Below, piece after piece: positions 14,666-29,798 of a stretch of DNA of 56,934 bases. Position numbers and translations under genes: made by a program. Below the pieces are notes generated by a model. That model saw only the letters and a program-made list of their open reading frames with translations, searched no databases and had not been told where the DNA came from. Within the stretch, counting starts at the first letter, position 1. Every line of letters starts with the position of its first letter. The DNA comes from Rhodocyclaceae bacterium (lineage in GTDB: Bacteria > Pseudomonadota > Gammaproteobacteria > Burkholderiales > Usitatibacteraceae): assembly GCA_020247395.1 (NCBI GenBank), contig JADCJC010000013.1, positions 1 to 56,934 of the forward strand, in the 5' to 3' direction.

Positions 14666-14678
14666 AGAGAAAAGTTAG

Positions 14679-14987: not shown

Positions 14988-15345
14988 TCTCCCCACCATT
15001 CCCGCCAAGCGCTACTTTACGATTGGCGAAGTCAGCGACCTGTGCGGTGTCAAGCCGCACGTGTTGCGGTACTGGGAACAAGAATTTACGCAATTGAAGC
15101 CACTGAAACGTCGTGGCAACCGTCGCTACTATCAGCACCATGAAGTTCTTCTGATCCGCCGCATCCGCGAGTTACTCTACGAGCATGGGTTTACCATCAA
15201 CGGTGCACGTAACCGTCTTGATGCCGTGGAAGCACCCGTGGCCCCACCAAGGTCGAGCGTGCCTCGGGGCTCGTCCAGAGTACTAGAGATGCGTGAAGTC
15301 CGAAGTGAGCTGAAGAGTATCCTTAAGATGCTAGGGGCGCCCTAG
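14965..15345 (+). CDS. MerR-family transcriptional regulator
   Basis: A 126-residue MerR-type winged-helix protein: [20 protein letters not shown] recognition region at about residues 16-35, the wing [19 protein letters not shown], then a short helix and a low-complexity S/P/R tail. There is no cysteine-bearing effector domain, so it is not a metal sensor. The gene overlaps ihfA by 23 bp and precedes tRNA-Pro, the conserved position of this uncharacterised regulator in Beta- and Gammaproteobacteria. Its targets are unknown. Confidence 0.93.
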
Positions 15346-15349
15346 TCGT

Positions 15350-15355
15350 TATAAT
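15350..15355 (+). promoter_or_regulatory. -10 element of tRNA-Pro promoter
   Basis: A perfect TATAAT lies 11 nt before the mature 5' end of tRNA-Pro and 4 nt after the merR-type stop. No good -35 match is visible at 17 bp, so tRNA-Pro may be served both by this element and by read-through. Confidence 0.5.
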
Positions 15356-15365
15356 TGCAGTCAGT

Positions 15366-15442
15366 CGGAGCGTGGCGCAGCCTGGTAGCGCACTTGCATG
15401 GGGTGCAAGGGGTCGCAAGTTCGAATCTTGTCGCTCCGACCA
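15366..15442 (+). tRNA. tRNA-Pro (anticodon GGG)
   Basis: A 77-nt cloverleaf with acceptor CGGAGCG / CGCTCCG, anticodon stem CTTGC/GCAAG around ATGGGGT (anticodon GGG, reading CCC and CCT), T-loop TTCGAAT, discriminator A and encoded CCA. It closes the thrS-pheST cluster and marks the boundary to the accessory catabolic region, but no attachment-site duplication of its 3' end is seen nearby. Confidence 0.97.
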
Positions 15443-15548: not shown

Positions 15549-17150
15549 CTAGACTAGCGCCTCCAACAACACCAGCAGCAGTAACGTCACCACCAGATAG
15601 ACGACTAACCACCAGGCTTGTTTATCGACATCGCCGGGCACGGTGTTCCAATTGCCTTCGACGGTCGTACGGCGCTTGGCAAAACGCGCACGTTGCCCGG
15701 GGATCGAGTAAGCCGACCATTCGGCCTGTTTACCGTCCAAGATTCTGCTCAAGCTCCAGCCGACAATGATAGTGACGGCACCGCCGATCAGACAGAACCA
15801 AGGCCAAGCAACGCGCGTTCCCGTAGCCACATACCAGATGACGGCAAAGCCCGCTATCACACCCACCATTAAGCCGCGTTCGGTGGTGTGTTTCGAAAAA
15901 AAGCCGAGTGCGTACATCCCCAACTTTGCCCCGACAAAGTAACTGCCGATTTTACTAATGACTTCCAGAATTGAGCCGTCGCTACGGGTGTACAGCATCG
16001 CCGGGAAGATGATGAGGATCGCCCACATAACCGTCGCACAACGCGTCGCAAACAAGTAATGTGCGTCGGATTCGTCACGCTTGAAGTAACGTTGGTAGAA
16101 GTCGACCACACTTGCGGTCGCCATGGAATTGAATGCTGAACTAAGGGTAGACATGGAGGCCGCTAGCACTGCGGCGGCCAATATGCCAAGCAATCCAGGC
16201 ACACCCGAATCAGCGGCAAATTGCAGAATGATTTCGTTGTTGTTGGCGAACGGCTTGCCGCCGTAGTAGCCGTAGGCGAGCACGCCGATAAAAAAGAACA
16301 AGAAATAAATCGGGAACCCCATGTACCCCATCAACAAATAGGCTTTTTTGGCGTCGCCGATGGTGGCAGCACCCAGTGTGCGTTGCACCATCATTTGGTT
16401 TGCGCCATAGACGGTGATATGAAACAAGGTCATACCGATCAAACCTGACCAAATCGTGGTCGAGATTGTGATGTCAGGTGTCGGGTTTATCGCATTGAGC
16501 CGACCGGACGCTTTCAGATTTGCCAGCACTTCAAGAATGGGTACTGGCATGGCAATAATCAACGCCACCATGATCACGATGGCACCACCAAACAACACCA
16601 CGGCCTGAAAGACGTCAGTCCAAATCACTGCCAACATACCTCCCATCGTGGTGTAGATGAGAGCCAATACGGTAATAAGCACAATGCTCACCGGTACTGA
16701 GATCCCGGTGATGAATTGCAACACCAGCGCTGTAGCATACAAAATCGCGCCGGTTGAAAGCCCTTGGGTGACGAGGAAAATGGTCGACATCACCGCGCGT
16801 GAGGTCGGACCGAAGCGCCGTTCTTGGTAATCGTAAATTGATGCCACGCCACTCGCGTAAAAGAACGGCAGGAAAAAACTCGTCACCAGCAATATCACAA
16901 TCGGGTAATTAAGATGGATCGCCAGTGCGGCCAAGCCGTCCCGGTATGCCCACGCCGGCGCACCGAGGAACGACAACGCGCTGATGTAGGTTGCAATCAC
17001 CGATAAGCCAATTGCCCACCACGGCGTACGACCGTTGCCAATGTTAAATTCACGCGCGGTGCTGACCTTCCCGCCGACGATGTAGCCGAGCACCAAATTG
17101 CCCGCCAAAAAAGCGACAAGAATAGACCAGTCGAGCGCATCAAATTTCAT
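15549..17150 (-). CDS. Sodium:solute symporter (SSS family)
   Basis: A 533-residue protein with about 13 hydrophobic helices. It has SSS hallmarks: the N-terminal LDWSILVAFLAGNLVLGY helix, GLSVIATYISALSFLGAPAW in the sodium-site region, and the central helices GLSTGAILYATALVLQF. It would import a small organic solute with Na+. It is the last gene of the operon that starts with the HisD-like enzyme, 112 bp after the hydrolase gene, so it probably carries that pathway's substrate across the inner membrane. GAGGGG lies 9 nt ahead of the ATG. The substrate cannot be read from the sequence. Confidence 0.9.
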   Translation of the reverse strand: MKFDALDWSILVAFLAGNLVLGYIVGGKVSTAREFNIGNGRTPWWAIGLSVIATYISALSFLGAPAWAYRDGLAALAIHLNYPIVILLVTSFFLPFFYASGVASIYDYQERRFGPTSRAVMSTIFLVTQGLSTGAILYATALVLQFITGISVPVSIVLITVLALIYTTMGGMLAVIWTDVFQAVVLFGGAIVIMVALIIAMPVPILEVLANLKASGRLNAINPTPDITISTTIWSGLIGMTLFHITVYGANQMMVQRTLGAATIGDAKKAYLLMGYMGFPIYFLFFFIGVLAYGYYGGKPFANNNEIILQFAADSGVPGLLGILAAAVLAASMSTLSSAFNSMATASVVDFYQRYFKRDESDAHYLFATRCATVMWAILIIFPAMLYTRSDGSILEVISKIGSYFVGAKLGMYALGFFSKHTTERGLMVGVIAGFAVIWYVATGTRVAWPWFCLIGGAVTIIVGWSLSRILDGKQAEWSAYSIPGQRARFAKRRTTVEGNWNTVPGDVDKQAWWLVVYLVVTLLLLVLLEALV

Positions 17151-17262
17151 ATTGGCTAACCCCTCGGTGGCGCACAGTCACTGCTGGTGACCAATTATCA
17201 GCTCGACCATAGTCCACTGGTATGTCTGTCGCGCATTGTGTTCGTTCAGAAGCAAAAGTCCT

Positions 17263-18018
17263 TTATACGCGGGCATCTTCAGCCGCTTGTGCCTGAAAAC
17301 GCCCGCCGATACTGGCGATCCAATCTTGGAGAATCGCCGCCGTCTGTGATGGTTGTTCGAGCGGCGCGAGATGTCCGGCCTCACCGATTAACCGGAACTG
17401 CGCTTGTGCCAGCTGTGCGGCCATCTGTCTATGTTGCGCTGGTGGACACAACGTGTCGAATTCTCCACACGCTACGAGCACTGGTTTCTGAATACACGAG
17501 AGCAGCGGCCAATAGTCGATTCGCGACGCCAGCGCTGCAGACTGCTTGAAAAATGTTGTTAGGCCGGCATCCGCCGCCATGGCCAACACGGTTGCCTCGA
17601 CGGCTGGTGACACCGCCAGCGGAAAGTAGCTGGGCAATAAGTGTGACCGCACCACGGCCTGGAGGCCGTTGTCACCCGCAAGGCGTGCTTGGTCTAGTTG
17701 CTGCTTGCGTGCACGACGTTTAGCCTCGGTATCGGCGCGGGGATTGGTGTCAAACAACGCTAACCCCACGATACGCTCCGGCGCTAATCGCCACATCTCA
17801 AGGGCTACCATGCCACCCATCGAGACACCAGTCGGCAACAACAATCCGGTGGTGACCGATAACGCGCGTTCGGCCATCGCCTCCACGCAATCTAGCGCGC
17901 CAAAATCGACAAATTGCTTCCGCCATTGCGGATCAAGACGCTCGGCAACGGGCTGCCAGACGCGCATGTCGCACAATGTTCCAGGAAGCAGGACCAGTGT
18001 CGGTGTTGACACATTCAT
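17263..18018 (-). CDS. Alpha/beta hydrolase
   Basis: A 251-residue single-domain alpha/beta hydrolase. The oxyanion-hole segment is LLPGTLCD near the start, the nucleophile S66 is in GVSMGGM, an aspartate follows in CGEFDTLCPP, and H is in EAGHLAPLE. This is the MhpC/enol-lactonase type of esterase, likely cytoplasmic. It starts 9 bp after the cupin gene in the five-gene operon. Its last 16 residues and stop are encoded by a copy of the dispersed palindromic repeat (17264-17318), so the natural C-terminus has probably been replaced or extended. The substrate is unknown; opening of a lactone made by the dehydrogenases is one possibility. Confidence 0.85.
   Translation of the reverse strand: MNVSTPTLVLLPGTLCDMRVWQPVAERLDPQWRKQFVDFGALDCVEAMAERALSVTTGLLLPTGVSMGGMVALEMWRLAPERIVGLALFDTNPRADTEAKRRARKQQLDQARLAGDNGLQAVVRSHLLPSYFPLAVSPAVEATVLAMAADAGLTTFFKQSAALASRIDYWPLLSCIQKPVLVACGEFDTLCPPAQHRQMAAQLAQAQFRLIGEAGHLAPLEQPSQTAAILQDWIASIGGRFQAQAAEDARV
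17264..17318 (-). repeat. Dispersed palindromic repeat, copy A
   Basis: Inverted arms CGGGCATCTTCAG and CTGAAAACGCCCG around a 9-nt centre. It matches copies at 39827-39880, 43688-43746 and 51098-51149. This copy lies inside the 3' end of the hydrolase gene and encodes SIGGRFQAQAAEDARV. Confidence 0.7.
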
Positions 18019-18027
18019 CGGACGGGT

Positions 18028-19059
18028 TCAGGCTAACGAAGCGGTAGCGACCACCGCCGCCTGCGGGCGCACTATAAACACTTCAGCGTCGTCACTCGCC
18101 TCTAGCCATCTTGCCGTATTGGCAGGCGCGCTAAAGGTGTCGCCGGCCGCGAGCGCCACACATGCTTCGTTACCCATACCCAAGGCAACGGCAGTCTTTG
18201 CGTGCCAATCGAGGCGCCCACGATGGACTAACAACACTTCGCTCACGTTAACTGAATATGCGGCGCTGCGCGCACCAGCTTTTATGGTCAGTCGTCGAAC
18301 GGTGAATCCATGCGCGCTACTGATGGGTGCCGTCCCGTGAGCATCGGCAAGAATTACTGCTGCATCATCGACACCCTCGGCGATAAGGGGCGAGGTGTGG
18401 TCGGTAACCAGACTTGTACGGCGGGCCACGTTGGCAAACATTTCTGCGGCCGTGGGTACCCTAATGTACGCAATCTCATCAGCTCGCGAAGGGCGCACCG
18501 CCGCCTCGTCAACAGGAATGCTCTCTCCCAGGGTGGTGTCGACCAAGCGCCCGCTTTCTAGCAGCACCAAGCCGTGGTCGCGCGCCTTTTCGATCACATG
18601 TGGTGCCCAATGCACACGACCAGGGTCGTCGCCGCCGAGAACCGCAAACATGAAGCCGACGTCCTCACCGACGTTCTCAAATCCGCGAAAGACATGAATC
18701 GGAATCGAGATGGTGTCGCCCGGGTACAATACAACCTCTCCCGCGTCGCCGTGTTCACCCCAAAAAAATCGCCATGTGCCCGTGTGGATGATGAACACTT
18801 CGGCACTGTCGTGGCTGTGCAGCGAGTTGGTGCAACCCGGTGGTTGTCGTGCCGCTCCGATGTTGAAGCCGTGCGGCTCACGGATATGTACATGTTGCCT
18901 TGGGTTTTCTGCCACCCCCGGGCCGATGATGGTGAAGTTTTCTTTCTGATCGCTGCCGGGGCTACGAGCATCAATGAAGGCGTTGGTACACGGAATCAAC
19001 TCAGCGTAACGGACCAGCCGTTCTGCCAGCGGAGTCGACAACCGGGGCACGCTGTTCAT
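18028..19059 (-). CDS. Two-domain cupin protein
   Basis: A 343-residue protein. The first cupin (about 60-150) has the metal motif HSHDSAEVFIIHTG and a downstream PGDTISIPIHVFRGFEN. The second (about 250-330) is degenerate, with VSEVLLVHRG and GDTFSAPANTARWLEA but without the full histidine set. A metal-binding dioxygenase, isomerase or sugar-sensing role is possible; the family fold does not decide. The start overlaps the SDR stop by 4 bp (ATGA) and the stop lies 9 bp before the hydrolase, so it is translated with the operon. No specific function is assigned. Confidence 0.82.
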   Translation of the reverse strand: MNSVPRLSTPLAERLVRYAELIPCTNAFIDARSPGSDQKENFTIIGPGVAENPRQHVHIREPHGFNIGAARQPPGCTNSLHSHDSAEVFIIHTGTWRFFWGEHGDAGEVVLYPGDTISIPIHVFRGFENVGEDVGFMFAVLGGDDPGRVHWAPHVIEKARDHGLVLLESGRLVDTTLGESIPVDEAAVRPSRADEIAYIRVPTAAEMFANVARRTSLVTDHTSPLIAEGVDDAAVILADAHGTAPISSAHGFTVRRLTIKAGARSAAYSVNVSEVLLVHRGRLDWHAKTAVALGMGNEACVALAAGDTFSAPANTARWLEASDDAEVFIVRPQAAVVATASLA

Positions 19060-19844
19060 AACAAGGCCCGCCCGCCATCGACATCAAACACCACGCCAGT
19101 GGAAAACACAAAATGGGTAGCGCATGCCACCACCGCTTGCCCGACCTCTGTTGGTGTACACAAGCGGCTCAACGGTGTGCGCGTCACCTGTTCGTCGCGC
19201 CAACGGACATCAAGTTGCTTTACGAACTCGGTGTCCACCAAACCAGGTGCAACAGAGACCACGCGAATGTCGGGCGCCAATGCGCGCGCGAGCGATTTGG
19301 TGAGGTTATCTAGGGCAGCTTTTGAGGCGCAGTAGGCAATATTGCTGCCCATCGCCGACTTTGCGGCAATCGACGAGACGTTTACCACCAAGCCGTCAGC
19401 GTGGCGTTGTAGCAGCGATTTCATCGCGCGAACGAGCGCGATTGGCCCGCGCACGTTAGTCGAAAAGATTTCGTCGATCAGCTTGTCGTCAAGTTCAGCC
19501 AAGTTTGCATGTGCCACGAATCGTGTCACCCCCGCGCAATTGACCAGCACATCGAGCCTGCCAAAGCGCTGCTCGATTTCTTGTGCCAGACCTGCCAGTG
19601 CAATACTATCGGTGACCGGCGCGGCCAACGCGATGTGGGGACTTTCAGCAGAGGTGGCGCAACTTGACATGGCAGTTACCAGCGCTTTCGCTGCGGCCGC
19701 AGACTGGTGATAACCGACTACAACGGTTACCCCTTCTTCGGCCAAGGCACGGCAAATGGCCGAACCAATGCCTCCAGCACCGCCTGTCACTAGGGCTACT
19801 TTGCCTACTAACTTGCCGGGCACGGTGACGTTTGAATCATGCAT
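19056..19844 (-). CDS. Short-chain dehydrogenase/reductase
   Basis: A 262-residue classical SDR: cofactor motif TGGAGGIG at residues 20-27, NCAG at 102-105, catalytic S158, Y171 and K175 (YCASK), and the PGLVDTEF loop. No acidic residue clearly follows the second strand (VVVGYHQS), so NADP preference is possible. It overlaps the HisD-like gene by 8 bp and the cupin by 4 bp, indicating tight translational coupling. It probably performs a second oxidation or reduction on the operon's substrate. FabG is ruled out by context rather than sequence. Confidence 0.9.
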
Positions 19845-21132
19845 TCAAAGCCGCAACTGGAGAAAGTCGGCGAACACGGATGTCAGCTTGCTCTTGGTGA
19901 CCGGCAAAATGTTCCAGTCCGCAGAGCCGTGAGCAGTACTCACCGATCGTGACGGAAGCTTCATCGGTCAGCACCCGCTGATAGGTGTGGGTTTTGATGA
20001 ACTTGCCGACCCAGAGCCCGCCGGTGTAGCGCCCAGCTCGATTGGTCGGCAACGTATGGTTGGTGCCGATCACCTTGTCGCCATACGACACGTTGGTACG
20101 GTGGCCGAGAAAAAGCGCGCCGTAGTTACGCATATGTTGCAGAAACCAATCCGGATTTTTGGTCATTACTTGGACGTGCTCAGAACAGATGCGCTCCGCT
20201 TCTTCGAGCATTTCCGCGTCCGTGTCACACAAAATAATTTGCCCGTAGTCGCGCCATGCCACGCTCGCGACGTCACGTGTGGCTAGGCGCTTTAGCACGG
20301 CGTCAATTTGCGACGGCAATTCATCGGCGATCTTTCGGCTTGTAGTGATACAAACCGCAGGTGAGTTGGGGCCGTGCTCGGCTTGACCCAACAAATCGAC
20401 GGCCACCAGTTCCGCATCGACCGTATCGTCACAGATCACCAGCGTCTCGGTCGGGCCCGCAAACAAATCAATGCCCACCCGTCCATACAACTGACGCTTG
20501 GCTTCCGCGACATAGGCGTTGCCGGGGCCGACCAACATGTCAACGGGTTTAACGTGTTCGGTACCCAAGGCCATCATTGCCACAGCTTGCACACCGCCAA
20601 CCACATAAATTTCATCTGCCCCGGCCAACGCCATCGCGGCCACGATCGCATCTGCTGGTTTGCCCTCGTACGGAGGGGCGCAGGCAATCACGCGTTCGAC
20701 CCCCGCGACCTTCGCGGTCAACACTCCCATATGGGCGGACGCCAGCAGCGGATATTTGCCGCCGGGGACGTAGCAGCCGACCGAACGAATCGGAATGTTT
20801 TTATGGCCTAGGATGACGCCAGGCAGAGTTTCGACCTCGACATCGCGCAGCGACAACATCTGCACCTGCGCAAATCGTTTAATCTGGGCTTGCGCAAACT
20901 TGATGTCGTCTATGGCCTGTTTCGGCAAACGACCGATGCAATCGTCAATTTGGCCAGCCGTCAATCGAAGTGAGTCCGGTACCCATTTGTCGAACTTTGC
21001 CGAGTACTCACGCACCGCCGCATCGCCACGTGCCTCAATATTGGCGAGGATGGTTTCGACAGTCGCGCGAACATTGGCGTCAATTTCCGCCTTTTGACTA
21101 GCGGTCTTGCCGTGTTTGAGTATTTTGATCAT
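19837..21132 (-). CDS. Histidinol-dehydrogenase-family alcohol dehydrogenase, not a histidine-biosynthesis enzyme
   Basis: A 431-residue zinc dehydrogenase of the HisD fold. By alignment with HisD, the zinc ligands are Q250, H253, D352 and H412, and the catalytic pair is E318-H319 (CSEHV). Segments such as [17 protein letters not shown] and GTNHTLPT followed by [14 protein letters not shown] resemble the catabolic branch that includes sulfopropanediol 3-dehydrogenase (HpsN) more than true HisD. There are no other his genes. It would oxidise a primary alcohol to an acid in two NAD-dependent steps. First gene of the leftward operon; two LacI-type operator-like motifs lie upstream. Confidence 0.85.
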
Positions 21133-21203
21133 TGGGCCGACCTTGAAATAGAAAAAAAACAGGCGAGCAAAACAAAATCACCCATCTATTTTGACTCAAG
21201 TTG

Positions 21204-21218
21204 TACTGCGAATGCAAA
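21204..21218 (-). promoter_or_regulatory. Operator-like motif 1 (putative LacI site)
   Basis: Reads TTTGCATTCGCAGTA on the minus strand. It lies 72 bp upstream of the HisD-like start. Three near-copies occur at 21291-21305, 25794-25808 and 25904-25918, each in a divergent promoter region of the same locus. Core inverted repeat TGC-N4-GCA. Confidence 0.55.
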
Positions 21219-21290
21219 CAGATGACATACTTATATTCAGAAATCTAGCAATCGTGGCCAACTGCCAGACGAAATAGCATCGATTTTTGG

Positions 21291-21305
21291 CTTGAATTCG
21301 CAGTA
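21291..21305 (+). promoter_or_regulatory. Operator-like motif 2 (putative LacI site)
   Basis: CTTGAATTCGCAGTA, 13 of 15 positions identical to motif 1 and in opposite orientation, 87 bp from it and 105 bp upstream of the SnoaL/NTF2-like start. Confidence 0.5.
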
Positions 21306-21409
21306 GTGAATACAATGCCATCAGCGGATGACGTAGCGTTTCATGGGGCGCGGCACGAATCCCGCAGCAAGAATTCAGCAATTAGTCGGCAAAAGGAGTG
21401 GAAGCCGCA

Positions 21410-22423
21410 ATGACTAACCAAGACCGCAACAACAGTAACTCGCCGTTGGTCGGCTTTGATCCAGAGTTTCGCGATCTAGATCACTATATTCGCGTGATTA
21501 CGGAGCGTATCTGGGAAGGGCGACGCATTGACGACATCCATAAGTACTATAGCGACCCCTGCGTGGTAGAAACGCCCGCGAGTGTGACCACCACGGTTGC
21601 GGACGTGGTTGATGGCACCAAACGCACACTTGCCCAGTTCCCTGACCGGCGATTGTTAGCCGAGGACATCATTCAATCGGGCGACGCCGTCGGTGGTTTT
21701 CTCAGTTCACACCGCATCATTTCGACCATGACTCATCTGGGCGAGGGCGACTTTGGGGCGGCCACCGGCAAACGCATCCATGTGCGCACCATCGCTGACT
21801 GTGTGTGCAAACAAAATCGCATCATTCATGAGTGGTTAGTGCGGGATCAATCTGCGATTGCGTTACAAATCGGCGTCTCGCCGCAGACGCTTGCACAACG
21901 CTGGTTAGATACCAAGCCGGGATGGTCGAAGCCCAGAATACCCGATTCACCAGCAGGTTACCGCTCGGCGTTAACCGATGACCCTGTTGCCTGCGCCTAC
22001 GCCAGCGCGCTGACGCAATTTGCGACGCAGAAGTTGACACCTGCTGGCATGGCGCGTACCTACGACGATGCGGTTCACCAGCTCGGCCCAGGTGGTGTTA
22101 CCCGATACGGCCACGCTGAAGTCGGACACTACTGGCAAACTTTGTTTGCGATTTTTGCGCCGCGTCAATTTGATATTGAACACCTTGCCGTAAATCGGGG
22201 TGACGGTCGCGCCGATCGGGTAGCCGTGCGGTGGCGCGCACAAACGCGACACATCGGCCAGCCGACCTCGCAGTTTGGTCGCGCCAGCGGTAACGCCGTT
22301 GAAATCATGGGTATTAACCACGTTGAGTGCTGGCGAGGCAGGGTGCTACGCGAGTGGGTATTGACCGACGAGATCGCGCTATGGATGCAGGTGTTAGGCG
22401 GCAGACCGGAAAACCACCCATAG
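21410..22423 (+). CDS. Tandem SnoaL/NTF2-like protein (first of two)
   Basis: A 337-residue protein made of two NTF2-fold halves. The first (about 15-160) has YYSDPCVVETPASV and a W-rich IIHEWLVRDQSAIALQIG end. The second (about 185-330) ends in HVECWRGRVLREWVLTDEIALWMQ. SnoaL-like proteins include polyketide cyclases and hydratases; a specific reaction cannot be assigned. The ATG at 21410, 11 nt after AGGAG, is preferred over the GTG at 21398, which overlaps that ribosome-binding site. It is divergent from the HisD-like operon over 277 bp holding two operator-like motifs. A related gene lies at 28809-29798. Confidence 0.8.
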   Translation: MTNQDRNNSNSPLVGFDPEFRDLDHYIRVITERIWEGRRIDDIHKYYSDPCVVETPASVTTTVADVVDGTKRTLAQFPDRRLLAEDIIQSGDAVGGFLSSHRIISTMTHLGEGDFGAATGKRIHVRTIADCVCKQNRIIHEWLVRDQSAIALQIGVSPQTLAQRWLDTKPGWSKPRIPDSPAGYRSALTDDPVACAYASALTQFATQKLTPAGMARTYDDAVHQLGPGGVTRYGHAEVGHYWQTLFAIFAPRQFDIEHLAVNRGDGRADRVAVRWRAQTRHIGQPTSQFGRASGNAVEIMGINHVECWRGRVLREWVLTDEIALWMQVLGGRPENHP

Positions 22424-22437
22424 TCAAAATGCCGACC

Positions 22438-22487
22438 TGACGGGCAGTGTCAGGAGTGATTTGCCCGAAGACGTTTACCCGCTAAGG
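22438..22487 (-). repeat. Possible degenerate copy of the dispersed palindromic repeat
   Basis: Between the convergent SnoaL-like and aldolase genes, the minus strand reads GCGGGTAAACGTCTTCGGGC and ends CTGCCCGTC, which resembles copies C and D in outline with insertions. Weak match, and it could instead be a factor-independent hairpin for the convergent genes. Confidence 0.25.
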
Positions 22488-22509
22488 AGTTTTGTTGCTT
22501 TCTTGTTGG

Positions 22510-23298
22510 CTACGCTGACATACTGCCAAGTCTTGCGGCCAGTGCGCGTGCGCCATCCAGCAAAAACTGCTGATCTGAGGCCAGCATAAAAAACGATGCG
22601 CCAGCACTTTGCCAACGTTCGCAAGTCTCCGTCGGTGGAAAAAACATGCCGACCGTTTTTTGGTGACGTTTGCCCGCCGCGCAGATTTTTTCAACCGCGT
22701 TGACGACCACCGCATCCATCGGGCTACTGGCACCGAGCGAGACGGTGAGATCCATACGACCGACGAACAGACAGTCGATACCTGTAACCTGCGCAATGTC
22801 GTCGAGATTGGCAAGCGCTTCCGCGTCTTCGATCTGGGCAATCAAGGTCGTTGTCATGGCACTAGAGGCAATGTGCGCCGCCATTGATTTAGTCGTATAA
22901 CGCGCCGAACGGCTGGAGCCGGCATAACCTCGTCCGCCGGGGCCGTAGTGGGAGGCTTTCGCAAGCTCGTGCGCTTGTTCACCCGCAACAATGTGTGGCA
23001 GTACGATGCCGGTCGCTCCACAATCAAGGGCGCTCAGAATTTCGCCCGCACAGCTCGACTGCACCCGAACCAGGGACGGCATGTCTGAAGCGCGCAGGGC
23101 GGCAATGCATTGATCTAATTCGAGCCGACCGAACGGAGCGTGTTCAGCATCGATGCAAACACAGTCCAGCGCCGACAGCCCCAACACTTCGCAGACAATT
23201 GGCGATGGCGTCTTCAAAAACGTTCCCATCATGGCAGCTTGTCGGCGCAGCCGGGCACGGAAGCCGGTGATACGGTCAATGTGGTTGATTTCGTTCAT
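22510..23298 (-). CDS. HpcH/HpaI-type class II pyruvate aldolase
   Basis: A 262-residue TIM-barrel aldolase of the 4-hydroxy-2-oxo-acid aldolase family. Alignment with HpaI gives catalytic H53 (IDAEHAPF) and R78, and divalent-metal ligands E157 (QIED) and D183 (GRMDL), all present. It would split a 2-oxo-4-hydroxy acid into pyruvate (or glyoxylate/oxaloacetate-type product) and an aldehyde. Third gene of the LacI operon, 10 bp after the MetE-like gene. Its presence says the pathway makes an oxo-acid intermediate; which one is unknown. Confidence 0.87.
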   Translation of the reverse strand: MNEINHIDRITGFRARLRRQAAMMGTFLKTPSPIVCEVLGLSALDCVCIDAEHAPFGRLELDQCIAALRASDMPSLVRVQSSCAGEILSALDCGATGIVLPHIVAGEQAHELAKASHYGPGGRGYAGSSRSARYTTKSMAAHIASSAMTTTLIAQIEDAEALANLDDIAQVTGIDCLFVGRMDLTVSLGASSPMDAVVVNAVEKICAAGKRHQKTVGMFFPPTETCERWQSAGASFFMLASDQQFLLDGARALAARLGSMSA

Positions 23299-23308
23299 AC
23301 TGGCATGC

Positions 23309-24448
23309 TCACCCTGCGCGCCACAAACGTTTTGTCGCGATGGCAGCGCCTTCGGCGAGTGCCGCTAATTTTGCGTAGACAATTTCAGGATCGACGTTGC
23401 CAAATCCGGCAAACGTGGAGAAGCCGCAATCGGTGCCGGCAATCACCCGGTCTCGGCCAACGATATTGGCAAAACGCTCAATCCGTTCGGCCACCAACAG
23501 GGGATGCTCGATGAAATTTGTCACTGAATCGAGCACCCCTGGAACCAAAATTTTGTCGTCTGGAATCGGTTGATCACGAAACACCGTCCATTCGTGCGCA
23601 TGGCGCGGATTGGCAGACTCAAACAATAACGCCTGCGGTTTTGCACGCAAGGCAATCGGCAGCACTACATCCATCGGTGCATCACAGTGGTGTGGTCCTT
23701 CGTAGTTGCCCCAACAAATGTGCATGCGCACTTTTTCGGCTGGGATATTACGTAACGCTAGGTTGGTGGCCTCAACATGCTGATGAGCGAGACGGACGTA
23801 TTCGGCCTCGGTTTTGTCCTTAAACATCATGTGTCGGCCTAGGCCTAAGTCTGGACAGTCGAGTTGAAGTGTGTGGCCTGCTGAGACAATGGCTTCGTAC
23901 TCAGGACGCATGGCTTCTGCCAGCGCTTCCAGATACGCCTCGTGGGTGGGATAAAACTCATTCGGCTGAAACAACGCGATCACGCCAGGGGAGGCCGCGT
24001 TCATAAACCCGCCCGTCGGCGGTGTGGCGGTCAATGCCGCTCGAAAGTTGGCGAGATCGACGTTCAAGGGCTCTAACGTTTTTGGCGCAATAGGGCCCAC
24101 GCAGCGCGGTCGGCGATAGCTCGGTGTGCCGCCGGATGAGGCCAGACGTTTCATAAAAGACGGAAATGCTTCAAGGTCTTGAGGCGTGCGCCGCGGGCTG
24201 TCGCCAGCAAAGCCAGTGATACGATCCTTGATATAAGTGGCATAGCTAATTTTTGACTGCTCGCCGTCGCTCACTAGATCGATGCCGACTGCAACTTGGC
24301 GCGCCACCACATCGCGAACTGCGGCAGCCATGGTGGACTCAAACTCGGCGACTGCATAACCGCTACCGAGCTCGTGTGCAAAAATTAGCTCTGCGACCCG
24401 CGCAGAGCGCGGGAGACTGCCGACGTGGGTGGTCAGAATACGATCCAA
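23309..24448 (-). CDS. MetE-like zinc-dependent alkyl/thiol transferase (cobalamin-independent methionine synthase II family)
   Basis: A 379-residue single-barrel relative of the MetE C-terminal half. It begins MDRILTTHVGSLPR, and by alignment the zinc ligands H243, C245 (MHICWGNYEG), E277 and C341 (GTDCGFST) are all kept. The N-terminal half of true MetE is missing, so it is unlikely to be a methionine synthase. Family relatives include epoxyalkane:CoM transferase and uncharacterised catabolic proteins. The start is TTG at 24448, behind a strong AGGAGGAGAAGG. It sits between the LacI gene (12 bp) and the aldolase (10 bp), implying alkyl or methyl transfer or thiol chemistry in the pathway. 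Confidence 0.8.
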   Translation of the reverse strand: MDRILTTHVGSLPRSARVAELIFAHELGSGYAVAEFESTMAAAVRDVVARQVAVGIDLVSDGEQSKISYATYIKDRITGFAGDSPRRTPQDLEAFPSFMKRLASSGGTPSYRRPRCVGPIAPKTLEPLNVDLANFRAALTATPPTGGFMNAASPGVIALFQPNEFYPTHEAYLEALAEAMRPEYEAIVSAGHTLQLDCPDLGLGRHMMFKDKTEAEYVRLAHQHVEATNLALRNIPAEKVRMHICWGNYEGPHHCDAPMDVVLPIALRAKPQALLFESANPRHAHEWTVFRDQPIPDDKILVPGVLDSVTNFIEHPLLVAERIERFANIVGRDRVIAGTDCGFSTFAGFGNVDPEIVYAKLAALAEGAAIATKRLWRAG

Positions 24449-24460
24449 TTCCTTCTCCTC

Positions 24461-25573
24461 CTATTGATGCGCGATTTTGCCGAGCCGCGCGGTGCCACCT
24501 TCGACAAATTGTGCGGCGAACACACGCCTCTCTGGCGCTGCCGCGGGATGATTAATAATCGAGGTCACCATCTCAGCGGCCGCCTGCGCCATCTGGTGCA
24601 TCGGCTGACGCAGGGTGGTGAGGTTGTAGCTCAACCACGTCGATGGTTCGACCCCGTCGAAGCCCGCAATCGACAGCTTTTTCGGTACGTCGAGACCAAA
24701 CTCATGGCGCGCGGTGTCGACACAGCCAATCGCCATCACGTCGTTGCCGCAAATAACTGCATCCGGTGTCCGCCCGCGCGTTTGCAGAATCTGTCGCAAC
24801 CCCCGTGCGCCGCTGTCGTAGTCGTAGTTGCCTTGGACCACCACCGGCTCAGGCAGACCAAGTTCGGCCAGCCGCTCGCGCGCGCCGCGAGTGCGTTCCT
24901 GTCCGACAAATGAATCTTTAGGACCGCTGATAATGGCGAAACGCTTGTGGCCAGCTGCCGCAAGACGCGAGACTAATATCCGCGCGCCTTCAATTTGATC
25001 GCAAACTACCGCATTGACGGCGCGCTCCCGCAGCGTTCGATTAAAGAGTACAAACGGGATATGACGGCGCTCGAACTCGGCGACTTGTTTTGGGTTCAGG
25101 CGCGCGGCGGCGATGACGCCGTCGACTTGATATTCCCAGACTTGGGCAACCATTTTATCCGCGTCGCCCTCGTGCGGTAGCGTGAACAACAGCACCCGCA
25201 AGCCATGACGCGCGAACTGTTGGCTGAGTTCGGATAACACTTCCGGGTAATAAAGATTGGTCAGATTCGAGATCAATACCGCGACTAAATTTGAGCGGCG
25301 GGTAATCAGGCTGCGGGCGATCGCGTTCGGCGTATAGGCCAGTTCGTTGGCTGCGGTCATCACACGTACCCGCATCGCCTCCGAGACGCTGGCACCGGGC
25401 TTAAAACAACGCGACACCGCCGACTGCGACACCCCTGCACGTCGAGCGACATCATAAGAAGTCACCAGCGGTGGGCGGCCGGGCGTCTGCGATGATTGGC
25501 CTGATGCCTCTTGTCTCGGGGGCTGCAGTTTGGCAGGTGATTTACGCGTCGAGCGGCTGGTTTTCAATGACAT
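24461..25573 (-). CDS. LacI-family transcriptional regulator
   Basis: A 370-residue LacI/GalR protein. The helix-turn-helix TSYDVARRAGVSQSAVSRCF is at about residues 38-57, the hinge helix is YTPNAIARSL, and the periplasmic-binding-protein-like effector domain follows. About 30 extra residues rich in S/T/K/R precede the usual N-terminus. The frame is open to 25828, but the ATG at 25573 has GGGAAAG in front and is chosen. It is the first gene of a leftward operon with the MetE-like enzyme and aldolase, divergent from the TonB receptor. It likely represses both sides through the 15-bp motifs until a pathway sugar or acid binds. Confidence 0.9.
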   Translation of the reverse strand: MSLKTSRSTRKSPAKLQPPRQEASGQSSQTPGRPPLVTSYDVARRAGVSQSAVSRCFKPGASVSEAMRVRVMTAANELAYTPNAIARSLITRRSNLVAVLISNLTNLYYPEVLSELSQQFARHGLRVLLFTLPHEGDADKMVAQVWEYQVDGVIAAARLNPKQVAEFERRHIPFVLFNRTLRERAVNAVVCDQIEGARILVSRLAAAGHKRFAIISGPKDSFVGQERTRGARERLAELGLPEPVVVQGNYDYDSGARGLRQILQTRGRTPDAVICGNDVMAIGCVDTARHEFGLDVPKKLSIAGFDGVEPSTWLSYNLTTLRQPMHQMAQAAAEMVTSIINHPAAAPERRVFAAQFVEGGTARLGKIAHQ

Positions 25574-25793
25574 TCTTTCCCAGAATGAGACAAACTGATA
25601 AGCGCGAGATGCCGCAGAGCGCATTGCGGGATGGCCGAAACGCCTTTTGGCAACCACCGGCGGTCTGCATGCGTCGTCAAACCATTTTGCCAGATCATAG
25701 CGGCTGGTGCCGCCACAGCCAAATACAAACCCATCCTGGATGCGTCGCGAAGAGGGTAAATCTACAACAGTGCGGAAAAAACGACAAATAGTA

Positions 25794-25808
25794 GACTGCG
25801 AATGCAAA
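25794..25808 (-). promoter_or_regulatory. Operator-like motif 3 (putative LacI site)
   Basis: Reads TTTGCATTCGCAGTC on the minus strand, 14 of 15 positions as in motif 1. It lies 220 bp upstream of the LacI start. Confidence 0.55.
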
Positions 25809-25903
25809 ATTTCTGCTAAATTATTCATGACATGATTATGAGAAGAGCATCACTGCGCCGAATATATGCCTCCAGTCGTGTCGACGAAGCAACAATGAGT
25901 TTT

Positions 25904-25918
25904 TTTGCATGCGAAGTA
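25904..25918 (+). promoter_or_regulatory. Operator-like motif 4 (putative LacI site)
   Basis: TTTGCATGCGAAGTA, 13 of 15 positions as in motif 1 and nearly a perfect palindrome (TTTGCATGCGAA). It is opposite in orientation to motif 3, 110 bp away, and 110 bp upstream of the TonB-receptor start. Confidence 0.5.
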
Positions 25919-26027
25919 CAGAAAGAGTCAGCGATTGCGTGGTCGCGCCCCCTGCATGGGGCGACTTACGGGTGAAGTTGATTGGCCCTTTCGTTAGCAA
26001 TCACAACAATTTTCTTTGGAGGCACGG

Positions 26028-28709
26028 ATGAAAACATGGCCACGTAAGACGCTCGCACTACAGGTTGCAATCGCCATCAGCAGCGCTGGCACAATGAGCG
26101 TAGCTGCCTTTGCCCAAACCTCGGCGGTGCCAGCAGCTCCTGCATCGTCGGCACCCAAGCCAGCAGGAATCGAGACCATCACCGTAACCGCGCAGCGGCG
26201 TGCGGAGAACCCACAAGAGGTGCCGGTATCGGTTTCGGTAGTCGGCGGCGACCAGTTAGCCGAACGTAACATCACCGACTTGTCGCAAATGGAATCCATG
26301 TCGCCGGGCTTTACGTTTGGCCGCTCTGGTACCGATGCGCGGCCCGCGATTCGTGGCGTGCGCACCGAAAACGTCGCAATTAACGGCGACACTACCATTG
26401 GCTTTTTTGTCGACAGCATTTACAAGTCGCGCGCGCAGCAAGCGTTGGCTAGTTTCATCGATGTCGATCGGGTCGAAATCCAACGCGGACCACAGGGAAC
26501 CCTATATGGCCGCAACACCTTTGGCGGCAATGTCTCGATTGTGACTAATGCGCCCAATCTCAATAAGTTCGAGGGTAGTGTTAGCCTGCTTGGCGGTGCG
26601 TTTAATCGTGTCCGCACTGAGGGGGTGGTCAATATTCCATTGAGCGATGCCTGGGCAATTCGATTTGCCGGTGCCGTTGATCGTGCCGACGGATACGTTA
26701 AAAACGACTTTAGTTCCTCTGCAGATTTGTTTGACCAGGATCTCAAGTTTGGCCGTGTCGCGCTTCGCTTTAAACCTAATGCACGCTTTGATGCGGTACT
26801 CCGTGTAGAGGGCACCGACCAAGGTGGCAATGGCGGCTCGGCTTTTGGCTACAAACAAAAGGGCACCTACTATGACCCGGCGTCCTGCCAACAACTCTTT
26901 AACGCCACAGAGTTGCGCATGAACGTTCGCCCCGGCAATCGGGATGGCGTTAATGATTGTGTGCGCACCGTCGGCGCAGGCGCTGGCACTGCCGCCAACG
27001 CGGTTGGCTCTGGCGTTGACCTTGGCATTCCGCTCTATCGTGCGGGTGACGGGTATCGAGTAGATAACGACTATAAGAGCTTCCTAAAGTTGAAGGACAC
27101 CAGCGCGTCGTTGGACTTGAGCTATCGCCTCGACGCTTTTTCTGTGCGCTCCATCACCGGCTACACAGACTTTGACACCGAGCGCACCTCGGACAGCGAC
27201 TTTTCCGCATCGACCATTGCCATCGACTACCAGCGCACCACAGCAAAAACGTTTTCCCAAGAGTTGCAGTTGATATCTGAAGGCAAAGGCCCATTTGGCT
27301 ACGTCGCGGGCTATTACTACTTCAAGGACAAAATGCGCGGTACGTTTATCAACCAACAGTTGCCGCGCACAATTCGTTCTACTGCGATCACAAGCCCGTT
27401 GTCATTGCCGCAAAACGGTGCCGGTTTTTTTGATGATCCGTTTGCAGAAACCGAATCGAACGCGATTTATGCGCAGTTCTCGTGGAAGGCAACCGATCAA
27501 CTGACGTTGACGTTGGGTGGCCGTAGCACACAGGACAAAAAGGACTTCCGTTTTGCAAGCGCCAACGCCACACTTCCTCGCAATGCGGCCGGCCAACCGG
27601 ATGGCAACTTAATCACGCTAGCAACGCCGGCTCCGCCTAGGTCGGCCTATGGAACAGCGGGTGCCTCCAACTGCAATCCGGTTCGCGGGCCGGGCTTTTA
27701 CTGCGACCCGACCAACCCCAGCATCTTGTTCGGCGGCACCTACGACAAAAAAACGTTTAGTAAATCGACTGGCAGATTTGCCGCTGATTACAAGCTTTCG
27801 AAACACAACTTGCTCTACGTCGCTTACTCAACGGGGTTCAGGTCTGGCGGGTTTAACTCTGGACAAGCCGTCGAGTCAGTGCGCACCTTCTTGCCGGAGG
27901 AAGTCAAAGCGGTTGAAGTTGGCTCAAAGAATCGATTCTTTGACAACACGTTGCAGATTAACGTCGCCGCATTTAGCAATAAGTACACCAACCTGCAAGA
28001 GCAGCGCCAAGTGCCCGTCGGTGCGACGACAATCTCGACGATCTTCAACGCGGCTAAGGCCAAGGCGGAGGGGGTGGAACTTGAAGTCGAGTGGCGCGGA
28101 GTAGAGCGTCTCTCCGTCGCTGCAGGCCTGTCGTTATTGGATGCAAAGTACACCAGCTTCCCGGATGTCGCCCTGCCGTTTGGCACATCAATTTTGGTCA
28201 CTGACGCCAGTAACGTCGCCGGTACAACGGTCAACGGCATTGTAATTGCTCCCCCAGGACAGCGCCGTGTTTTTGCCCCTGGGTATTCGTGCGGTGTGCT
28301 ACCGGGCACAGGCGGCGCGGGACAACCGCCTGTTGCGTTCGGCTGCGATCTGTCCGGCAAACGGGTGCCATACGCGTCGCGTTATCAAGGCTCAATTTCG
28401 GGGGCGTATGAGTTTGACATGCCCAACGGCGGACGTTTAACACCGATGATTGTCGCGACCTTCAACAGTGGTTTTTATGGCCAGCCAACAAATGCCGAGA
28501 TCGAAAAGCAGGGTGCGTACACGAAATTCGATATCAAACTCAATTGGGAAGTGAATCGCAACCTGACCGCATTGCTCTATTTGGATAACGTGACCGACAA
28601 AGAAACCATCAACCGCTTTGTGTGGGGTGGCGGAGGTGCATTGCAGGTGAGCTCGGCACCACCACGCACGTTTGGTTTGCGCGTGAACTACAACTTTAAG
28701 TCGCTGTAA
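26028..28709 (+). CDS. TonB-dependent outer-membrane receptor
   Basis: An 893-residue receptor. The signal peptide ends near residue 30 (SVAAFAQ), followed by an A/P-rich linker, a TonB box at IETITVTAQRR, the plug domain (PVSVSVVGGDQL to VEIQRGPQGTLYGRNTFGG), and a 22-strand barrel ending in an aromatic-rich strand (TFGLRVNYNFKSL). Such receptors take up bulky or scarce nutrients across the outer membrane with TonB-ExbBD energy. No siderophore-biosynthesis or iron genes are near. Its place opposite the LacI gene suggests the ligand is the locus's carbon substrate. The ATG at 26028 follows TTGGAGG; an upstream TTG in frame is part of that ribosome-binding site. Confidence 0.93.
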   Translation: MKTWPRKTLALQVAIAISSAGTMSVAAFAQTSAVPAAPASSAPKPAGIETITVTAQRRAENPQEVPVSVSVVGGDQLAERNITDLSQMESMSPGFTFGRSGTDARPAIRGVRTENVAINGDTTIGFFVDSIYKSRAQQALASFIDVDRVEIQRGPQGTLYGRNTFGGNVSIVTNAPNLNKFEGSVSLLGGAFNRVRTEGVVNIPLSDAWAIRFAGAVDRADGYVKNDFSSSADLFDQDLKFGRVALRFKPNARFDAVLRVEGTDQGGNGGSAFGYKQKGTYYDPASCQQLFNATELRMNVRPGNRDGVNDCVRTVGAGAGTAANAVGSGVDLGIPLYRAGDGYRVDNDYKSFLKLKDTSASLDLSYRLDAFSVRSITGYTDFDTERTSDSDFSASTIAIDYQRTTAKTFSQELQLISEGKGPFGYVAGYYYFKDKMRGTFINQQLPRTIRSTAITSPLSLPQNGAGFFDDPFAETESNAIYAQFSWKATDQLTLTLGGRSTQDKKDFRFASANATLPRNAAGQPDGNLITLATPAPPRSAYGTAGASNCNPVRGPGFYCDPTNPSILFGGTYDKKTFSKSTGRFAADYKLSKHNLLYVAYSTGFRSGGFNSGQAVESVRTFLPEEVKAVEVGSKNRFFDNTLQINVAAFSNKYTNLQEQRQVPVGATTISTIFNAAKAKAEGVELEVEWRGVERLSVAAGLSLLDAKYTSFPDVALPFGTSILVTDASNVAGTTVNGIVIAPPGQRRVFAPGYSCGVLPGTGGAGQPPVAFGCDLSGKRVPYASRYQGSISGAYEFDMPNGGRLTPMIVATFNSGFYGQPTNAEIEKQGAYTKFDIKLNWEVNRNLTALLYLDNVTDKETINRFVWGGGGALQVSSAPPRTFGLRVNYNFKSL

Positions 28710-28745
28710 GCGACGCATTGGGTCGCGCCGTTCCGGCCGATTTGG

Positions 28746-28778
28746 GCCGTCTTACCCGCGAGGGTTAGACGGCTTTTT
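28746..28778 (+). terminator. Intrinsic terminator after the TonB receptor
   Basis: Stem GCCGTCTTACCC (28746-28757) with GGGTTAGACGGC (28762-28773), one mismatch, loop GCGA, then five T. It separates the receptor from the second SnoaL-like gene, which starts 30 bp later, so the latter needs partial read-through or its own promoter. Confidence 0.88.
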
Positions 28779-28808
28779 CATTATTGACTGAACCCCGACA
28801 TTAAAGCG

Positions 28809-29798
28809 ATGCACACAGTCATTTCACAGAAACAGCACTACCTAGATGCGCTAGCCAAGATCGGCGAGTTATCAGCAGTTGCGCGGCTAGGTGCAATACG
28901 GCAACTCTACCGTGCAGATGTGGAATGGCACGGCCCGCACCCGGTCAACGCGCTGTCAGGCGCGAACACCTTGATCGAACAGTTTTGGCAGCCGCTGTTT
29001 ACCGCGTTTCCTGATCTCGAGCGCCGAGACGACATCGTTATCGCCAATACATTTGGAGGCGCGACTTGGATCGGCGCGACTGGGCACTACACCGGGACAT
29101 TTGCCGCAGATTGGTTGGGGCTGCCAGCGAGCGGTGGCGTGGTCAACATTCGCTATGGAGAATTCAGCCGGATGGAGGCAGGACAAGTCGGCGAAGCTTA
29201 TGTCATCTTGGACCTGCTCGATGTAATGCGCCAAATCGAATGCTGGCCACCTCATCTGCCAAAGGGGCGCGGTCTTACCGATCGTATTCCTGGGCCGGCA
29301 ACGCGAAACGGTGTGTCGCTATCGCTCGCTCCCGCGACTGAAAGCGAAAAGTCACTCAGGCTGGTTGAGTCCATGATCGCTGGCCTGATGCGGTACGATC
29401 AGAAATCGCTCGACAGCATGGGCATGCAACGCTTTTGGCACCCACAGATGATGTGGTACGGCCCGGCCGCCATTGGCACCAGCCGCAGATTAGAGGGATT
29501 TCAGGACGTACATCAGCGCGCCTTTTTGGCGGCATTCCCGGATAGGGTCGGCGGCAATCACAAGGCGCGAATCGCTGACGGGGCGTATGTTGGCTCGTGT
29601 GGTTGGCCGTCGATCAACGCGACCCACCTAGGTCCTTGGCTGGGAGTCCCCGCCACCAATCGGCGCATCACTATGCGGGTCATGGATTTTTGGCGACGAG
29701 AAGGCGATTTTCTGCGGGAAAACTGGGTGTTTATTGATCAGGTTGATTTGCTGTTGCAGATGGATGTTGATGCATTTGCGCATCTGCTTTATCGCTAA
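28809..29798 (+). CDS. Tandem SnoaL/NTF2-like protein (second of two)
   Basis: A 329-residue protein with two NTF2-fold halves of the SnoaL/ester-cyclase kind. The first has LYRADVEWHGPHPVNALSG and IGATGHYTGTFAADWLGLPA; the second has FWHPQMMWYGPAAIGTSRR and THLGPWLGVPATNRRITMRV, ending in LRENWVFIDQVDLLLQM. Both halves keep the GHYTGT/THLGPWLGVPA pattern usual for the family, better than the paralogue at 21410-22423. It follows the TonB receptor behind a terminator. It may perform hydration, cyclisation or isomerisation in the same pathway; the reaction is unknown. Confidence 0.8.
   Translation: MHTVISQKQHYLDALAKIGELSAVARLGAIRQLYRADVEWHGPHPVNALSGANTLIEQFWQPLFTAFPDLERRDDIVIANTFGGATWIGATGHYTGTFAADWLGLPASGGVVNIRYGEFSRMEAGQVGEAYVILDLLDVMRQIECWPPHLPKGRGLTDRIPGPATRNGVSLSLAPATESEKSLRLVESMIAGLMRYDQKSLDSMGMQRFWHPQMMWYGPAAIGTSRRLEGFQDVHQRAFLAAFPDRVGGNHKARIADGAYVGSCGWPSINATHLGPWLGVPATNRRITMRVMDFWRREGDFLRENWVFIDQVDLLLQMDVDAFAHLLYR

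Follow-up and report, generated by a model that had tools for sequence, protein, structure and literature searches.

A LacI-controlled gene set of a Rhodocyclaceae-labelled bacterium as a candidate locus for breakdown of a methyl-bearing polyhydroxylated compound

What does a bacterium take up and break down with eleven neighbouring genes whose families are all known and whose combination is apparently new? This question is raised by positions 15549-29798 of contig JADCJC010000013.1 (assembly GCA_020247395.1) from a Rhodocyclaceae bacterium, a stretch of 56,934 nucleotides that is called the window throughout; the source genome measures 3.9 Mb in 133 contigs and is 100% complete. A sequence-only reading had described eleven genes in two divergent groups, named their families, matched them to no known pathway and proposed a catabolic locus under LacI control. 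Eleven open reading frames (ORFs) occupy exactly this span, the Pfam curated cut-offs are exceeded for each of the 11 proteins, and no pathway assigned to the set was found in the open-licence PMC literature. As judged from sequence, the catabolic locus appears real, co-regulated, apparently undescribed and endowed with many relatives. Our reading of its function, to which we give a probability of about 0.4, is that it forms one LacI-controlled regulon by which a small methyl-bearing polyhydroxylated compound would be taken up and broken down oxidatively, with no kinase step; an O-methyl sugar, cyclitol or cyclohexenone is the likeliest candidate.

The first group comprises leftward genes for an SSS-family sodium:solute symporter, an alpha/beta hydrolase (ABH), a cupin, a short-chain dehydrogenase/reductase (SDR) and a HisD-like protein, divergent from a rightward tandem NTF2 gene (NTF2-1). 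In the second, leftward genes for an HpcH aldolase, a MetE-like protein and the LacI regulator diverge from a rightward TonB-dependent receptor gene followed by a second tandem NTF2 gene (NTF2-2).

The two groups are joined by a shared intergenic sequence, ACTKCGMATGCAAA, which is a candidate LacI-type operator. Exact copies in the genome number three, at 21205, 25795 and 25904; all of them fall at the two divergent promoter regions of the locus, and the pattern read backwards gives no match in the genome. One copy (ACTGCGAATGCAAA, 21205..21218, plus strand) lies between the HisD-like gene and NTF2-1, another (ACTGCGAATGCAAA, 25795..25808, plus strand) just inside the listed LacI ORF (24461..25828, minus strand), and the remaining one (ACTTCGCATGCAAA, 25904..25917, minus strand) between the LacI and TonB receptor genes. 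The region of the first copy also holds a weaker site with two mismatches (21291..21304, minus strand), a level at which chance matches are expected: in the window alone it gives 5 matches against 2.62 expected, with 8 of 100 shuffles as high, which is not significant. A palindrome search of the intergenic regions found none common to two regions. Because the copy at 25795-25808 lies within the LacI ORF and the helix-turn-helix starts near residue 122, the ORF is probably over-long at its 5' end, with the true start well inside it and downstream of the operator; the protein carries both the family helix-turn-helix (residues 125-168) and the periplasmic-binding-like domain Peripla_BP_3, each over its Pfam cut-off. 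The motif was spotted by eye when the intergenic regions of the window were compared and was tested afterwards, so that independent evidence for it comes only from its counts in relatives and elsewhere in the genome. Since exact operators stand at both divergent regions and nowhere else, both halves probably belong to one regulon, and the predicted operator makes their co-regulation very probable, in agreement with the proposal of LacI control.

The counts in relatives (handles beginning with L denote loci or regions, those with G genomes) extend this pattern. At no more than one mismatch the operator was present in 12 of the 43 loci scanned, with 1-5 sites each against 0-0.15 expected per locus. 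All four sister loci carry it at both divergent regions, with three exact sites each in L012 and L023, three one-mismatch sites in L013, and one exact and two one-mismatch sites in L029. It also stands beside the same genes in other groups (L014, L016, L017, L018, L020, L073, L074 and L044); the Hyphomonadaceae locus L016 has five sites, upstream of TonB, SSS, MetE-like, cupin and NTF2 genes, and in the genomes behind L016, L018, L020 and L074 the matches lie mostly inside the cluster. Outside the cluster the exact form was found once each in G009, G004 and G149 and not in G011, and its backward control matched once in G003 and once in G149. For a 15-base form at up to one mismatch, outside sites were single in G535 and G531 and two in G424, with backward-control matches at one mismatch numbering two in G156 and one in G531. 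The operator was absent at up to one mismatch from the other 31 of the 43 loci, including L022, L024, L030, L031, L034, L036, L041, L043 and all of L075-L092; in the operator-less ABC-type roseobacter and rhizobial clusters scanned, the LacI protein is 32-41% identical to that of the window. The genome behind L016 also holds a second cluster copy with operators (L146/L147, G533:C8:297-313 kb), either a real duplication or a mixed metagenome-assembled genome (MAG), and an MGH1-like glycoside hydrolase gene (PF22422) lies upstream of the cluster at L016:288-1613. The TonB receptor and LacI genes of L012 are split into several pieces, probably by assembly indels.

Co-conservation of the two halves was followed in three samples, using a five-part core of HisD, cupin, aldolase, ABH and LacI. 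Sample A consists of 18 loci returned by the MetE-like protein alone, from Beta-, Alpha- and Gammaproteobacteria and from MAGs labelled Acidobacteria and Anaerolineales, according to the record titles. The HisD-like subfamily (at least 58% identity) is present in 13/18 of them, the cupin in 12, the aldolase in 13, the ABH in 12, LacI in 14, tandem NTF2 in 14 and the five-part core in 10. The closest loci by the MetE-like protein, both 88% identical, come from Betaproteobacteria bacterium UKL13-2 (L012) and a Rhodocyclaceae-labelled MAG; the published description has UKL13-2 assembled from a co-culture with Aphanizomenon from Upper Klamath Lake (PMC5248499). In four Pseudonocardia loci (L025-L028), the only window proteins with a match were the MetE-like one and, in one locus, the SDR; HisD, cupin, aldolase and NTF2 had none.

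Sample B was seeded by the cupin, whose profile matched 24 of 398 genomes of the phylum (own genome included) at 28 places, 20 of which were fetched. These 20 regions carry the HisD-like gene in 14 cases, a pyruvate aldolase, LacI and tandem NTF2 in 16 each, the SDR and the ABH in 13 each, the MetE-like gene in 8 and the five-part core in 11. Fifteen of the 24 genomes belong to one family, f95, which is probably the roseobacter family, since three of its genomes recur in the class of G533 (Hyphomonadaceae) and the same gene order is found on Ruegeria and Octadecabacter plasmids. Sample C was seeded by the MetE profile, which matched 67 of 385 genomes in the class of G533 at 105 places; among the 40 regions fetched, HisD was found in 15, the cupin in 17, tandem NTF2 in 16, LacI in 13 and the five-part core in 4. 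These frequencies depend on the MetE-like protein itself: at 57.5% identity or more, HisD occurs in 12/19 and the cupin in 14/19 regions, against 3/21 each in the remainder. Samples B and C were hand-picked from the 28 and 105 places, with preference given to strong matches and to long contigs. Regions truncated at a contig end, of which there are several, were all counted. The samples overlap, with L194, L195 and L196 of sample C coming from the same genomes as three cupin-seeded regions (identical MetE rows), and the genome of L202 has a contig equal in length to that of L021. Within the genus of the window, the MetE-like gene is present in 5 of 13 genomes, own included; those five are 99-100% complete and the other eight 73-88%. 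Taken together, the neighbourhood comparison suggested by the sequence-only reading for the HisD-like, MetE-like and tandem-NTF2 families bears out the co-conservation of both halves, and at the level of sequence the set is more than a chance neighbourhood. Of the two outcomes which that reading named as refuting it, a gene set already assigned to a known pathway and halves that are not co-conserved or co-expressed, neither was encountered in the sequence and literature comparisons.

Across these clusters the constant part is the cupin with a pyruvate aldolase (HpcH or RraA), usually accompanied by HisD-like, SDR, ABH and LacI genes, and the tandem-NTF2 and MetE-like genes, though frequent, are not found in every cluster. 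The smallest versions, TRAP genes beside cupin-HpcH-ABH (L088) and LacI with HisD-SDR-MFS-ABH-HpcH-cupin on a Klebsiella plasmid (L036), have neither MetE-like nor NTF2 genes, which marks these two as accessory to the cupin and aldolase core. The type of transporter alternates, TonB plus SSS being replaced by sugar-type ABC, TRAP, TTT or MFS systems; sugar-type ABC genes occur in 11/20 cupin-seeded and 14/40 MetE-seeded regions, and other versions of the cluster have ABC transporters and lack the operator of the window.

The HisD-like protein (19837..21132, minus strand; PF00815, 449 bits) is a probable four-electron alcohol dehydrogenase. Its closest solved relatives are HpsN dehydrogenases (1.2e-115), ahead of the best histidinol dehydrogenase (3.9e-75); the histidinol dehydrogenase family TIGR00069 is also over its cut-off, in a context that is here catabolic. 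The catalytic Glu318-His319 and the zinc Asp352 (window numbering) are invariant in 13 rows and aligned to HpsN. The published signature of HpsN is G-R-Y-A/S-H, with the final His binding zinc and sulfonate (PMC11382572). The corresponding motif of the window is GKYPL, the rows read G-[KR]-[YF]-P-[LM], and the His is found in none of the 13 aligned rows, of which 11 belong to the subfamily and two are paralogues. The enzyme thus probably works like HpsN, yet by the motif test it is not HpsN; family membership favours the alcohol-to-acid oxidation proposed earlier, whereas the hint of a sulfur-bearing substrate drawn from the HpsN relation is not upheld by the signature so described. No Xsc was over its cut-off in the genome, in a search that left SuyAB and CuyA outside, and no sulfolytic family was found among the eleven proteins in Pfam or NCBIfam. 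Elsewhere in the genome a second HisD-type gene, 35% identical, has an open frame with one TGA.

The MetE-like protein (23309..24448, minus strand; PF01717, 43 bits) is a core of 379 amino acids and not a full-length MetE with its N-terminal domain, scoring 23.4 bits on TIGR01371 against a cut-off of 929.95. Residues H243, C245, E277, C341, S11, E63 and D197 are invariant in 16 MetE-like rows; when the alignment is widened to 18 rows, the Glu is missing from a single distant row. Aligned to MetE 1u1h, the first four fall on positions 647, 649, 671 and 733, which we take to be the MetE zinc ligands, and S11 and E63 on 439 and 490, presumably the Ser and Glu contacts of homocysteine; Asp197 is not among the aligned residues and fits by motif only. 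This conservation supports the proposed alkyl- or thiol-transfer step in the form of a predicted zinc-thiol transfer protein, probably passing a methyl group to homocysteine. A housekeeping methionine synthase role is unlikely, because MetH is over its cut-off in the genome and the MetE-like gene is then not needed for methionine synthesis; no further MetE match was found in the genome. The pathway of epoxyalkane:coenzyme M (CoM) transferase (EaCoMT) combines MetE-fold zinc thiol transfer with SDR enzymes. The locus differs in that the homocysteine-site residues are kept and ComA has no match in the genome (other CoM routes were outside this search, and the comparison included no EaCoMT sequence), which weakens the CoM-transferase hint of the sequence-only reading.

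The alternative hint, an O-methylated substrate, gains support from genome context. Relatives of the MetE-like protein (49-52% identity) stand with a LigM/DesA-like aminomethyltransferase, MetF, PurU and FolD on Novosphingobium US6-1 and Croceicoccus plasmids, the two loci opened of six such rows listed, and the same O-demethylation neighbours recur in 2 of the 40 sample C regions (L209, L213). These four rows form one clade (100/100), and their setting points to methyl groups derived from ethers. In the two sphingomonad plasmid loci opened (L094 and L095), which are O-demethylation and one-carbon clusters, a small NTF2 gene lies directly behind the MetE-like relative; it has no significant BLAST similarity to the tandem NTF2 proteins. 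Such clusters share with the window the pairing of a MetE-like relative and an NTF2 gene (two loci), whereas their folate-dependent demethylase and extradiol ring cleavage are both missing from the locus. On the MetE tree, one branch unites 44 of 45 cluster-linked rows with eight others (93/91, short of the starred level), and the beta rows are nested among sequences of alpha, gamma and acidobacterial-MAG origin (89/97, left open), as expected if the gene set moved between classes. With seven changes needed for the cluster label, the tree gives no one clean origin; the labelling was manual, and L006 counts as 'other' though its wider region L149 carries the cluster. The MetE-like family also occurs on haloarchaeal plasmids at about 41-44% identity, the one opened (L096) being without annotated cluster genes, and two tandem MetE-like genes lie at L208:8833-11200 in a genome of the class of G533.

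The HpcH/HpaI class II pyruvate aldolase (22510..23298, minus strand; PF03328, 95.2 against 25 bits) is GarL-like, its closest solved relative being 2-dehydro-3-deoxyglucarate aldolase (2.6e-29), and falls under the cut-off of the GarL equivalog TIGR03239 (129.9 versus 406.75 bits). RraA takes its place in Ruegeria, Octadecabacter, S. medicae and Roseibium; an RraA motif with spacing 20 matched in 0/4 sequences, and RD-x2-D with spacing 21 is present by eye. Two unrelated aldolase families filling one place make the predicted pyruvate-type retro-aldol step robust, in line with the earlier proposal. The bicupin (18028..19059, minus strand; Cupin_2 plus Cupin_1) has an N-terminal site of H81, H83 and E87, with Arg125 where the second-motif His is usual, and these columns are invariant in 12 rows. 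A search with its sequence alone gave no solved structure at E 0.01; its AlphaFold model (mean predicted local distance difference test, pLDDT, 81; residues 34-55 under 50) aligned with bicupins of unlike function, including oxalate decarboxylases and seed globulins.

The SDR (19056..19844, minus strand) scores 159 bits on PF00106. The ABH (17263..18018, minus strand) is PcaD/MenH-like, over its Pfam cut-off and far under the NCBIfam cut-offs for PcaDC and PcaD. A hydrolysis step is suggested by the frequency of ABH genes (12/18 loci, 13/20 regions) together with an L-fuconolactonase-like amidohydrolase (under its cut-off) and SMP-30 proteins in some relatives. NTF2-1 (21398..22423, plus strand) matches PF07366 and PF12680 in two stretches, and NTF2-2 (28809..29798, plus strand; PF07366, 86.6 bits, and PF12680) has one solved relative, 8ysb, titled 'Predicted ester cyclase' (1.2e-7). 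For uptake, the TonB-dependent receptor (26016..28709, plus strand) is over the cut-offs of PF00593 and PF07715; the symporter (15549..17150, minus strand; PF00474, 155.8 bits; TIGR00813, 225.8 against a cut-off of 184) counts SMVT, SMCT1, NIS and SGLT among its solved relatives. The solute-binding protein of the Ruegeria cluster resembles many sugar-binding proteins including SmoF, none closely.

These observations can be arranged into a pathway. Gene set, shared operator, co-conservation, family membership and conserved sites are drawn from sequence, and from them we infer all activities, the order of steps and the class of substrate. The TonB receptor and SSS symporter, or a sugar-type ABC system in many relatives, would take up the compound; the HisD-like enzyme would oxidise an HOCH2-C(OH)- group to the carboxylate in two NAD-dependent steps, the SDR would form a ketone, and the ABH would open a lactone or 1,3-diketone. 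The MetE-like zinc protein would transfer the methyl group to homocysteine, yielding methionine. Dioxygenation, dehydration or isomerisation by the bicupin and tandem-NTF2 proteins might then give a 4-hydroxy-2-oxo acid, which HpcH (RraA elsewhere) would split into pyruvate and an aldehyde or oxo acid, with LacI repressing both divergent units as long as it has bound neither the substrate nor an intermediate. Neighbouring Otn/Ltn genes in L091 and L150 suggest a four-carbon acid as product in some versions, and L-serine dehydratase genes in two Hyphomonadaceae clusters and in L202 suggest serine in others. Aldarate and other non-phosphorylative sugar-acid pathways with a GarL-type aldolase resemble this scheme in the closest relative of HpcH and, among the relatives, in sugar-type uptake and lactonase-like proteins; they differ from the locus, where no IlvD or enolase-superfamily dehydratase is found among the eleven and HisD-like, cupin, NTF2 and MetE-like genes stand instead.

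Several observations weigh against this reading of the locus. The MetE-like gene is missing from similar clusters of S. medicae (L034), Klebsiella (L036) and Roseibium (L043) and from 12/20 cupin-seeded regions, so the methyl group is not common to all versions; conversely, the family is common outside such clusters, and among the 40 hand-picked regions (of 105 places) 15 have the HisD-like gene. With no LigM-type demethylase among the eleven, the MetE-like protein would need to take the methyl group directly from an unusual donor. The cupin fold matches cannot tell a dioxygenase from a decarboxylase or a storage protein, and pairs of HisD-like and SDR genes also occur among aromatic genes. 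The LacI proteins of L015, L019 and L021 are 50-56% identical to that of the window, yet these loci have no operator at up to one mismatch (L015 and L021 have operator-like sites with two).

Other substrates were weighed against the same evidence. An aromatic or lignin-type polyol, whose phenylglycerol side chain would be oxidised by the HisD-like enzyme and SDR before a ring-cleaving cupin dioxygenase, hydrolase and aldolase act as in meta-cleavage, is unlikely: the corresponding aromatic genes are absent from the eleven, many relatives have sugar-type ABC systems, and the cupin fold is matched equally well by oxalate decarboxylases and seed globulins. Gentisate enzymes need the second-motif cupin His, and this gentisate/salicylate-type residue is replaced by Arg125 in 12/12 rows. 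A little more doubtful is a route from a sugar acid (ascorbate, for instance, or some other C6/C7 acid) in which the cupin and HpcH or RraA give a four-carbon acid for the Otn/Ltn route. It would explain L150:10926-19503, where the MetE-like gene is followed by LtnD, OtnK, OtnC and OtnI, a full tetronate set all over cut-off, and L091, where cupin-HpcH-ABH is followed by OtnK and OtnC over cut-off and OtnI under it (291.7 versus 325); however, Otn genes are lacking among the eleven and were found in 1/20 cupin-seeded regions, 0/40 MetE-seeded regions and 0/18 genome-contig loci. Far less probable is an organosulfonate pathway akin to catabolism of 2,3-dihydroxypropane-1-sulfonate (DHPS). HpsN in Cupriavidus and roseobacters likewise performs a HisD-fold four-electron alcohol oxidation beside an SDR, with the catalytic Glu/His and zinc Asp aligned, but the locus lacks the signature His and sulfolytic genes and adds MetE-like, cupin, NTF2 and aldolase genes; with the signature His of PMC11382572 lacking in 13/13 rows, we reject the sulfonate reading. 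Least probable of all are two independent units that became neighbours by chance: transporter genes and layout do differ between lineages, but the operator common to both divergent promoter regions and the co-conservation across classes argue for one system.

A more specific proposal, about as doubtful as the tetronate route, is a dedicated pathway for the mineralisation of sunscreens of the mycosporine type, or of another O-methylated C7 cyclohexenone or cyclitol, with the core-MetE enzyme demethylating onto homocysteine. The MetE fold would then itself be the catabolic demethylase, a role not met in the open-licence PMC literature. The substrate would be the 4-deoxygadusol ring of cyanobacterial and algal mycosporine-like amino acids. 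The HisD-like enzyme would oxidise the CH2OH (C7) of the tertiary carbinol, the MetE-like protein remove the 2-O-methyl group, and the cupin cleave the reductone between C1 and C2, leaving 4-carboxy-4-hydroxy-2-oxoadipate for RraA or HpcH to split into pyruvate and oxaloacetate. The chemistry would fit, the predicted acid being exactly the substrate of LigK-type aldolases, and the S. medicae RraA is weakly similar to the aldolase that acts on it, LigK/PcmE (34.9 bits against a cut-off of 304.5). Serine release from shinorine would agree with an L-serine dehydratase and a Gly_transporter-family gene inside two Hyphomonadaceae clusters and with L202:7177-10577, where the MetE-like gene is directly followed by L-serine dehydratase with a YadS-like gene adjoining, although the dehydratase occurs in only 2/18 loci, 0/20 cupin-seeded and 1/40 MetE-seeded regions. 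The Aphanizomenon co-culture described as the source of UKL13-2 and the origin of some plasmid hosts of the MetE-like gene from sea ice waters, coral or sea water are also in keeping with this proposal. Against it, methyl donors of this kind are not known, plant-associated Sinorhizobium has similar clusters that lack the MetE-like gene, relatives have sugar-type transporters, and the tetronate genes beside MetE-like (L150) or cupin-aldolase (L091) genes would be superfluous to this route; no such pathway was found in the open-licence PMC literature.

As to its surroundings, the locus adjoins an ORF with ricin-type beta-trefoil lectin domains (window 29997-31370; PF14200 and PF00652 over cut-off), and on the other side PheT, tRNA-Pro and a MerR-like ORF (MerR by eye) lie directly beside it (12293-15442). 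UKL13-2 has a pheT-like ORF on the same flank, also by eye, and L013 and L029 have other flanks; these differences indicate that the cluster may have moved within the genus.

That the gene set recurs across several classes, with further loci in Acidobacteria- and Anaerolineales-labelled MAGs and with the operator partly conserved, suggests a compound common enough to sustain a dedicated pathway. Its identity would annotate several poorly described families, namely the tandem SnoaL/NTF2, HHE-Arg bicupin, GKYPL HisD-like and core-MetE subfamilies, and the locus may show how a methyl ether is stripped without P450, Rieske or folate-dependent demethylases.

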